Below the pieces are notes generated by a model, which ran no database searches, had not been told where the DNA came from, and saw only the letters and a list, made by a program, of their open reading frames with translations. From Chryseobacterium sp. (GTDB lineage Bacteria > Bacteroidota > Bacteroidia > Flavobacteriales > Weeksellaceae): a stretch of DNA of 64,000 nt. Shown here piece after piece: positions 59,438-59,938 of the stretch (positions are counted from its first letter, which is position 1; every line of letters starts with the position of its first letter). A program made the translations under genes and the position numbers. The stretch covers positions 1,550,001-1,614,000 of the forward strand of contig NZ_CP044507.1 in NCBI RefSeq assembly GCF_008831505.1, read 5' to 3'.

Positions 59438-59865
59438 AGAGAACCACCTCTGTGATTCTCTTTGTCTAGTAGCGGGGACACGACTCGAACCTGCGTTCGC
59501 CGCGGCGAATAGGAGCCCTCCACTGGCTATAAAAAAAGAGAACCACCTCTGTGATTCTCTTTGTCTAGTAGCGGGGACACGACTCGAACCTGCGTTCGCC
59601 GCGGCGAATAGGAGCCCTCCACTGCCTACAAAAAAAGAGAACCACTTTTGTGATTCTCTCTGTCTAGTAGCGGGGACACGACTCGAACGTGCGTTCGCCG
59701 CGGCGAATAGGAGCCCTCCACATGCTACAAAAAAAGAGAACCACCTCTGTGATTCTCTCTGTCTAGTAGAGGGGACACGACCCGAACGTGCGTTCGCCGT
59801 GGCGAATAGGAGCCCTCCACATGCTACAAAAAAAGAGAACCACCTCTGTGATTCTCTTTGTCTAG
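59438..59865 (-). repeat. 99-bp tandem array of initiator-tRNA 3' halves with terminators
   Basis: The bases equal to the tRNA 3' end (TAGCGGGGACACGA on the plus strand; third base changed in one copy) recur at 59470, 59569, 59668, 59767 and finally at the intact tRNA at 59866: a strict 99-bp period. On the minus strand each partial copy keeps the T arm and acceptor 3' strand, then a hairpin of AGAGAATCAC and GTGGTTCTCT with T-run. The tRNA 5' half is missing and replaced by GGAGGGCTCC and the palindrome TTCGCCGCGGCGAA (one base changed in the copy next to the tRNA). Copies 1 and 2 have a T-stem change that breaks pairing; copies 3 and 4 keep it. The intact unit's hairpin at 59838-59861 is the tRNA terminator. 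Confidence 0.9.
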
Positions 59866-59938
59866 TAGCGGGGACACGACTCGAACGTGCGACCTCCGGG
59901 TTATGAGCCCGACGAGCTACCTACTGCTCTACCCCGCG
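59866..59938 (-). tRNA. Initiator tRNA-fMet (CAU)
   Basis: 73 nt without CCA. Cloverleaf: acceptor CGCGGGG with CCCCGCT, D arm GAGC/GCTC, anticodon arm TCGGG-CTCATAA-CCCGG, T arm GCACG-TTCGAGT-CGTGT. Two initiator marks are present: an unpaired C1 (C opposite T72) and three G-C pairs at the base of the anticodon loop. CCA is not encoded. A promoter lies at 59948-59979 and a terminator at 59838-59861. Confidence 0.95.

Follow-up and report, generated by a model that had tools for sequence, protein, structure and literature searches.

A 99-bp tandem array behind an initiator tRNA gene of Chryseobacterium as a putative nuclease-less form of small tRNA-specific homing elements

Introduction

What could have placed a row of partial tRNA ends, each carrying a palindrome, behind an intact initiator tRNA gene? 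The question arises from a Chryseobacterium chromosome, of which a stretch of 64,000 nucleotides (NZ_CP044507.1, positions 1,550,001 to 1,614,000; hereafter the window) was analysed. A preliminary description of this DNA had left three options, namely remnants of repeated insertion at the tRNA 3' end, a slippage array, and a structured RNA with a tRNA-like 3' end. The first of these comes closest to what we find, with the amendment that a scan of ten neighbouring proteins, seven from the window and three from a second locus of the same genome, detected no integrase and that the units of relatives hold a GIY-YIG gene. As judged from the comparisons presented here, the array is probably a nuclease-less form of small tRNA-specific homing elements, which would regenerate the tRNA gene they cut and pile up in tandem behind it.

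Results

Anatomy of the window array

Tandem Repeats Finder (TRF) places a 99-bp tandem array at 59437-59891 of the window, with 4.6 copies, 95% matches and 0% indels, next to the only tRNA in the whole window, a tRNA-Met(cat) on the minus strand, so that the four partial copies of the tRNA-fMet 3' end described earlier are real. They had been said to precede the gene, which holds in plus coordinates only: as the gene lies on the minus strand, the four units (59437-59832) are downstream, 3' of the gene and behind its terminator (Table 1). The GGGCTCATAACCC of its anticodon arm is what we take to be the mark of an initiator tRNA.

In each unit a displaced 3' part of its own fMet tRNA is joined to a terminator, and a palindrome follows immediately on the anticodon position. 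On the tRNA strand the order is a T run, a few variable bases, GGAGGGCTCCTA, the palindrome TTCGCCGCGGCGAA, the T arm CGCACGTTCGAGTCGTG, the acceptor 3' strand CCCCGCTAC and the terminator hairpin, with single-base differences among units. The matching region of the intact gene reads ..GTCGGGCTCATA ACCCGGAGGT CGCACGTTCGAGTCGTGTCCCCGCTAC.., and the unit thus corresponds to the tRNA from the anticodon arm to its end. Both a fixed block and a palindrome had been regarded as gained, of which only the palindrome is foreign; it replaces about ten bases (ACCCGGAGGT) on the 3' side of the anticodon arm and in the variable region, while GGAGGGCTCC is the altered 5' side of the tRNA's own anticodon arm (..GTCGGGCTCATA..), in which GGA stands for GTC and C for A, and not new material. 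An interpretation of GGAGGGCTCC as a hairpin was rejected, since comparison with other genomes identified it as this altered arm.

The pattern TTCGCC-N{2,8}-GGCGAA occurs four times in the window, always inside the array, against 0.02 occurrences expected from shuffles. A palindrome is indeed present in every unit, as had been claimed, and is identical in three; the unit nearest to the tRNA has one central change (TTCGCCGTGGCGAA on the plus strand). Equally borne out is the decay of the T stem in two copies, the two distal ones (GCAGGTTCGAG). No GIY-YIG nuclease ORF (PF01541) was found in the units of the window array, and at the gathering threshold Rfam returned tRNA and cobalamin matches only for the window.

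Table 1. Features of the array and its tRNA gene, in window coordinates
Feature	Position	Strand	Basis
Intact initiator tRNA-fMet gene	59865..59938	-	ARAGORN, Rfam RF00005 59 bits
Terminator-like hairpin of the tRNA gene, then T run; a copy ends each unit	59833..59858	-	fold, sequence
Nearest ORF-less unit: T run, altered anticodon-arm 5' side, palindrome, T arm, acceptor 3' strand, terminator	59734..59832	-	TRF, sequence, fold
Second unit	59635..59733	-	sequence, TRF, fold
Third unit, decayed T stem	59536..59634	-	sequence, TRF, fold
Fourth (distal) unit, decayed T stem	59437..59535	-	sequence, TRF, fold
Palindrome TTCGCCGTGGCGAA, nearest unit, just 3' of the anticodon position	59793..59806	.	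pattern search
Palindrome TTCGCCGCGGCGAA	59694..59707	.	pattern search
Palindrome TTCGCCGCGGCGAA	59595..59608	.	pattern search
Palindrome TTCGCCGCGGCGAA	59496..59509	.	pattern search
15-mer GGGCTCCTATTCGCC, displaced anticodon arm joined to palindrome, nearest unit	59801..59815	-	pattern search

Elsewhere in the window, two 378-bp direct repeats with 84% matches, rich in TCTGACA-type heptamers, lie directly beyond the array (58649-59407), and a 165-bp tandem repeat of 3.1 copies is found at 36640-37145. The cobalamin match is a riboswitch at 26707-26903 on the plus strand (56.7 bits). Genes for an HsdM-type methylase, a WYL-domain protein and a PD-(D/E)XK_4 nuclease stand close together at 52795-57806, a defence-like neighbourhood.

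Counterparts in the same genome

Some 13 kb away, a similar array (C1:1622882-1623237, 94%) follows another fMet gene; it has two full units and a third that is cut after the T loop by other DNA; a lone unit lies 2.1 kb further on (C1:1620714-1620803), and two of the three palindromes in the array are imperfect. The intervening DNA of about 2.1 kb (L004 6804-8881, C1:1620804-1622881) encodes a 238-aa protein that matches no Pfam family.

ORF-bearing units occur in this genome at other tRNA genes. Seven of its eight PF01541 matches fall into a pair of tandem arrays that adjoin the 3' end of tRNA genes: elongator Met (C1:449213) is followed by three of them and Asp (C1:2164513) by four. The eighth is inside a 616-aa frame. 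Each of these units comprises a terminator, an ORF of about 80 codons and a displaced 3' part of its own tRNA, in which the anticodon is directly followed by a palindrome, TCCGCCGCGGCGGA at elongator Met and TCTCGTCAT..ATGACGAGA at Asp. The displaced part is visible in all three Met units and in three of the four Asp units; the first ORF of the Met array is cut short. This like layout suggests that the window array is the ORF-less counterpart of such units.

Nine of the 12 TYCGCCNNGGCGRA sites in the genome are inside units, and a highly repeated, dispersed palindrome family was accordingly rejected for this genome. Three lone TCCGCCNNGGCGGA palindromes stand outside tRNA units (L125, L126, L127), two of them apparently intergenic by eye.

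Units at fMet and other tRNA genes of relatives

It had been proposed that related genomes be searched for the unit. ORF-less units of like build to those of the window were found in G011 (L040), G406 (L132) and, as a single unit, G156 (L140), and ORF-bearing ones elsewhere: in G010, G012 and G032 the fMet gene is followed by ORF-bearing units, loci L039, L041 and L042 showing the GIY-YIG layout, and G032 has four units of 347 bp, three with a stop in the ORF. Some units of L132 read TTTATGG..ATGGAGGGCTC, which resembles the start-codon region joined to the right end of a unit with no ORF between. Loci L097 and L188 both have an ORF, their scripted 'noORF' label being an artefact of a distance limit. 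In G408, a gene resembling a Y1 (REP-type) transposase by eye lies between two displaced fMet ends (L137, ~1020-1570, reverse strand).

The window array and the ORF-bearing fMet units of other genera have the palindrome position in common, and with some of them also the GGA. The 15-mer pattern that spans the junction of arm and palindrome (GGGCTCNTATYCGCC) is present in 15 of 395 genomes of the order, against one match in all for the reversed pattern. The altered GGA before GGGCTC appears in 22 of 73 displaced copies, some of them ORF-bearing, and in none of 92 intact fMet genes, a signature that could be convergent.

For a sample not biased towards tRNAs, an alignment of five Met-type ORFs was run against contigs of one genome per species, covering 84,980 species; it yielded 188 relatives, of which the best 80, at 78 distinct loci, were kept and fetched by ORF homology alone. 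In this best-80 sample a tRNA lies upstream on the same strand at 63 of the 78 loci and has the anticodon CAT in every case, 47 being initiator and 16 elongator tRNAs by sequence patterns, and 50 of the ORFs start 36-93 bp after the tRNA. Among the 15 loci without a tRNA, again of the best 80, eight begin within 520 bases of the ORF. Of the 77 best-80 loci with a complete 3' region, 63 have both the arm-palindrome junction and the hairpin, six have one of the two and eight neither. Flavobacterium predominates among the hosts of these best 80, next to Aquimarina, Kaistella, Cloacibacterium, Algoriphagus and others; a contig that bears the title of a Rhizobium MAG may be a binning error.

All fetched loci were then pooled; the PF01541 matches followed up, of which 63 were taken further, were our choice among the matches listed. 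The pool gave 93 distinct units with a tRNA at most 130 bp upstream and a complete 3' region, units lacking the full 3' region or standing behind false tRNA calls (Gln, SeC) being left out here and in the hairpin counts. They belong to fMet (47), elongator Met (15), Arg-tct (11), Val-tac (6), Ala-ggc (5), Asp (3), Phe (2), Ile2-like (2), Pro (1) and Asn (1) tRNAs. An exact copy of at least 11 nt from the 3' part of the same tRNA follows the ORF in 77 of the 93, the other 16 having no recognisable copy; this layout thus extends to nine tRNA kinds besides fMet, six of them with two or more examples. A hairpin that is absent from the tRNA, with arms of at least 6, is found in or just before the copied stretch in 70 of the 77 (with TC..GA ends in 56 of the 70) and is missing from seven, while equal stretches inside the ORF, taken as a control, contain some such hairpin in 24 of 77. 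The palindrome usually sits at the anticodon arm; Arg and Val units have exchanged that arm entirely, the two Phe units carry the palindrome within the T loop, and a second palindrome occurs in some units.

A link to tRNAs is lacking for many small GIY-YIG genes: no tRNA accompanies 24 of 40 loci fetched around PF01541 matches (chosen among the matches listed), and 95 of the 236 pooled ORF instances are within 130 bp of an upstream tRNA. On displaced ends with palindromes ARAGORN called false tRNA-Gln and tRNA-SeC genes (L055 1379-1466, L081 1913-1990, L082 1326-1405), so that the units can create spurious annotations.

Empty sites and a displaced native end

If the units are insertions, alleles without them should be seen, and this is the case. 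Against the congener G001, the window fMet locus shows 131 of 137 aligned upstream bases identical and a neighbour protein at 85% (L036), and the second fMet locus 122 of 136 aligned upstream bases and a Sua5 protein at 96% (L035). Both G001 loci are free of units and therefore represent element-free alleles at orthologous sites. G002 has no unit at its fMet locus and G003 one degenerate unit.

A further pair of loci tells what happens to the native 3' end. In L182 the second fMet gene is empty, the tRNA being followed by its terminator and, 62 bases on, by the Sua5 gene; the corresponding fMet gene of L039, which also stands before Sua5, holds a unit. The terminator and flank of L182 match the stretch behind the displaced copy of L039 at 69 of 70 positions, and the terminator behind the intact tRNA of L039 is a different one. 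The native terminator thus sits behind the displaced copy, and at L039 the intact tRNA end has been separated from its original 3' flank, which was pushed downstream. It is at this fMet locus of a relative, and not at the window locus itself, that a displacement of the kind known from fungal mORFs (see Discussion) is seen.

A conserved nuclease with clades matched to tRNAs

The ORF inside the units of relatives encodes a GIY-YIG protein of about 80 aa. Two ORFs of the present genome and one of a relative score 51.7-61.1 bits against PF01541, whose cut-off is 22.6, and the same three have no family in NCBIfam. Y7, Y18, R28, H32, E65 and K69 are invariant in 12 of 12 aligned ORFs, the conserved Tyr, Tyr, Arg and Glu presumably having a catalytic role. 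The nearest solved structures by sequence profile are GIY-YIG proteins of the UPF0213/SLX1 type (PDB 1zg2, 1ywl, 7wme, 7cq2, 7cq4); these entries are named hypothetical proteins or subunits of structure-specific nucleases. Among the Met-type ORFs of the best 80 of 188 relatives, 76 of 78 are at least 75 aa long, and the median dN/dS of Met-type ORFs is 0.14 over 1357 pairs, which are not independent of each other; these are signs of purifying selection.

A maximum-likelihood tree was computed from 84 rows, each a distinct protein whose ORF is at least 70 aa long and follows a tRNA by no more than 130 bp; those behind the false Gln and SeC calls were left out. It needs 17 changes of tRNA label, compared to a mean of 40.1 for shuffled labels, and none of 200 shuffles came as low. 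Arg-tct (9 rows), Ala-ggc (5) and Phe (2) form single clades, and so does Met-cat with 55 rows (support 100/98), in which initiator and elongator hosts are intermixed (9 and 8 changes); both of these tRNAs have TCATAACCC. One Ile2-like row, with CAT but TCATAATC, falls outside the Met-cat clade on a long branch. The tree is limited to 85 columns and has long branches and many open forks, and Asp and Val each need two origins. By association, the ties between nuclease clades and tRNA identity point to a specific target. The view that an initiator tRNA is an unusual host has to be given up, as initiator and elongator Met tRNAs host one large nuclease clade. At the limits used, the Met-type ORF found no relative in phage, plasmid or viral-contig collections and the Arg-type ORF none in the phage collection, so that these searches revealed no carrier.

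Discussion

How might such units arise? That the window array belongs with small tRNA-specific homing elements is suggested by its anatomy, the layout common to units of different tRNAs, the displaced native end, the empty orthologous sites, the tRNA-specific clades and the signs of purifying selection. From these we infer a course of events that includes cutting at a particular site, homing by repair, self-amplification, loss of the ORF and action in trans. The full element would consist of a tRNA 3' part, a terminator, a GIY-YIG ORF of about 80 aa, an altered anticodon arm and a palindrome. Its nuclease would cut the cognate tRNA gene in the region of the anticodon arm and variable loop, between anticodon and T arm, and the break would be repaired from a copy bearing the element; the part missing from most displaced copies would then mark the cut site. 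Left homology would be provided by the tRNA 5' half and right homology by the T arm together with acceptor strand and flank, and the donor's 3' half, terminator, ORF, arm and palindrome would be inserted between them. In this way the tRNA would be rebuilt with the 3' part of the element, while the native 3' part and its terminator would be pushed downstream, with the palindrome replacing the cut region. The rebuilt tRNA would possess the target once more, so that further units could be added behind the intact gene through renewed cutting or simply through recombination among the units.

Nothing but the tRNA-derived ends, the terminator and the palindrome is left in the window units, which we take for an internal-deletion form that was amplified. 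An endonuclease ORF within the insert, as mORFs have it, is present in relatives and absent from the window units, and we therefore do not class the array among autonomous members; its membership rests on the common layout, the position and the palindrome. Recombination perhaps carried the 99-bp unit to both fMet genes of the genome, and the Met-type nucleases at the elongator-Met locus could act on the window units in trans. That the unit is an internal-deletion form served in trans is the least certain step. In its most far-reaching version, which we put forward tentatively and with considerable reserve, this would be a new bacterial selfish element, with minimal GIY-YIG nucleases, one tRNA gene per clade, a palindromic scar and tandem self-amplification, the 99-bp units being parasites served in trans by the elongator-Met nuclease.

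Several observations sit uneasily with the homing scheme. Some units have no recognisable 3' copy or no foreign hairpin, Phe, Arg and Val units depart from the usual arrangement at the anticodon arm, many small GIY-YIG genes stand away from tRNAs, Asp and Val each need two origins on the tree, and lone palindromes of a similar kind are found at other places in these genomes. Displaced copies have the palindrome in place of the presumed target, and the intact tRNA keeps that target, so that the usual self-immunity of homing elements seems to be missing, which would count against our main reading. In addition, partial copies with a palindrome are also found 5' of the intact fMet gene in L130 (G073, ORF-less), L138 and L139, and at the Asp locus of the present genome (L056) two partial Asp copies with a palindrome lie upstream of the intact Asp genes, with the nuclease units downstream. 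Displacement of the 3' end does not by itself explain these 5' copies, which would be accounted for if there were also a mirrored form, one replacing the 5' half; on the reverse strand of L059 (G002), a 5' part of tRNA-Glu with palindromes, a GIY-YIG ORF and an intact tRNA-Glu occur in such a mirrored arrangement.

A competing account is plain tandem duplication, in which illegitimate recombination copied the tRNA 3' end, slippage or unequal crossing-over multiplied it, the palindrome is there by chance and the nuclease genes elsewhere are unrelated passengers. The units are nearly identical and without indels, and their number differs between the two fMet loci of the genome, as this account would have it; unequal exchange may well contribute to the length of the array. 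Slippage alone does not explain, however, why different tRNA genes in several families have a common layout. The palindrome position is likewise common to fMet loci of several families, the arm-palindrome 15-mer stands out against its reversed control, and a nuclease ORF followed by a copy of the same tRNA's 3' end recurs at nine other tRNA kinds, which makes duplication by itself an unlikely origin. A better case, though still one we are inclined to doubt, can be made for an idea that concerns the palindromes only and is compatible with the main reading: they may be dispersed mini-elements, perhaps moved by Y1 (REP-type) transposases, that are harmless in displaced copies and unconnected with the nuclease. 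TCCGCC-N2-4-GGCGGA also occurs outside units and is found in 12 of 18 genomes, with 0 to 31 sites per genome; all 12 palindrome-bearing genomes have Y1_Tnp genes, and second palindromes are found in T loops and D loops. Yet Y1_Tnp genes are present in 15 of the 18 genomes tested, among them, of the six palindrome-free ones, G013 and G194 with clear matches and G023 with a weak one, whereas G038 has palindrome-bearing Val units but no Y1_Tnp match. Together with the preference for the anticodon position and, in the present genome, for sites within units, this renders the link to Y1 transposases suggestive at best.

A functional RNA would require leaky transcription from the tRNA promoter, giving tRNA-like 3' fragments with a hairpin for an anticodon arm that might act as decoys or regulators, a role reportedly proposed for the tyrT repeat RNA of E. 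coli. Terminator and hairpins are kept, the window units fold better than shuffles (z -2.5 to -2.9, to which the hairpin of the terminator that ends each unit adds), and the second palindrome pair covaries, with 122 C-G, 12 T-A and no mixed case, related sequences being counted apart. But congeners do without the units, T stems decay in two of the four, each unit ends in a terminator of its own, and a structured RNA is not needed to explain the array; we regard this possibility as quite improbable. Least probable is attachment-site debris of tyrosine integrases using the tRNA 3' end. Such ends are classic integration sites, and foreign sequence of about 2.1 kb interrupts the second array; against this, the neighbouring proteins scanned include no integrase, the palindrome lies inside the copied stretch, where an att core would be identical, and the units of relatives hold a GIY-YIG ORF.

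Parts of the proposed homing scheme have precedents. SegB of T-even phages is described as a free-standing GIY-YIG homing endonuclease encoded beside tRNA genes (PMC13096335, PMC2988022); it is reported to cut within tRNA genes, and SegB with its catalytic residues to be required for a recombination-dependent tandem amplification of a tRNA segment (PMC13096335). Both systems have a GIY-YIG gene adjoining tRNA genes and, if our scheme is right, tandem amplification in common. However, SegB belongs to phages and lies in a tRNA cluster with 83 reported cut sites, and the available parts of its description contain no displaced tRNA 3' half with a palindrome (PMC13096335, PMC2988022), whereas the bacterial units have a chromosomal gene for about 80 aa, one tRNA kind per clade and usually a displaced tRNA 3' part next to it. 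Displacement itself is known from fungal mitochondrial mORFs, which bring a new host-gene 3' part and an endonuclease ORF (GIY-YIG in atp9) to atp6, atp9, cox2 and nad3 and leave the native 3' part displaced downstream (PMC3630166). In contrast to the units, their hosts are protein-coding and mitochondrial, and in the portions of that report available to us palindromes and tandem arrays do not figure (PMC3630166).

Tandem repeats 3' of a tRNA gene are a feature that the array has in common with the rtT locus. The 178-bp tyrT repeats of E. coli, the source of rtT RNA, reportedly each hold a copy of the tRNA 3' end; only 19 tRNA bases are said to be copied, without a palindrome or nuclease relatives, and the window has no rtT match in Rfam at the gathering threshold. 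GIY-YIG units behind bacterial tRNA genes were not described in the open-access full texts searched; most subscription journals lie outside this body of text, so that the result is weak evidence of novelty.

With these comparisons an odd repeat turns into a member of a widespread class, in which tRNA genes of Flavobacteriales and some other Bacteroidota are accompanied by nuclease units matched to their own tRNA. For annotation, the units are a source of false tRNA calls and probably also of assembly breaks at tRNA loci. If the homing reading is true, the class would be a bacterial counterpart to fungal mORFs and phage SegB, and would offer small nucleases that are by nature grouped according to their tRNA target. 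It also allows a test of whether repeated cutting, rebuilding and parasitism of an essential gene can go without harm.
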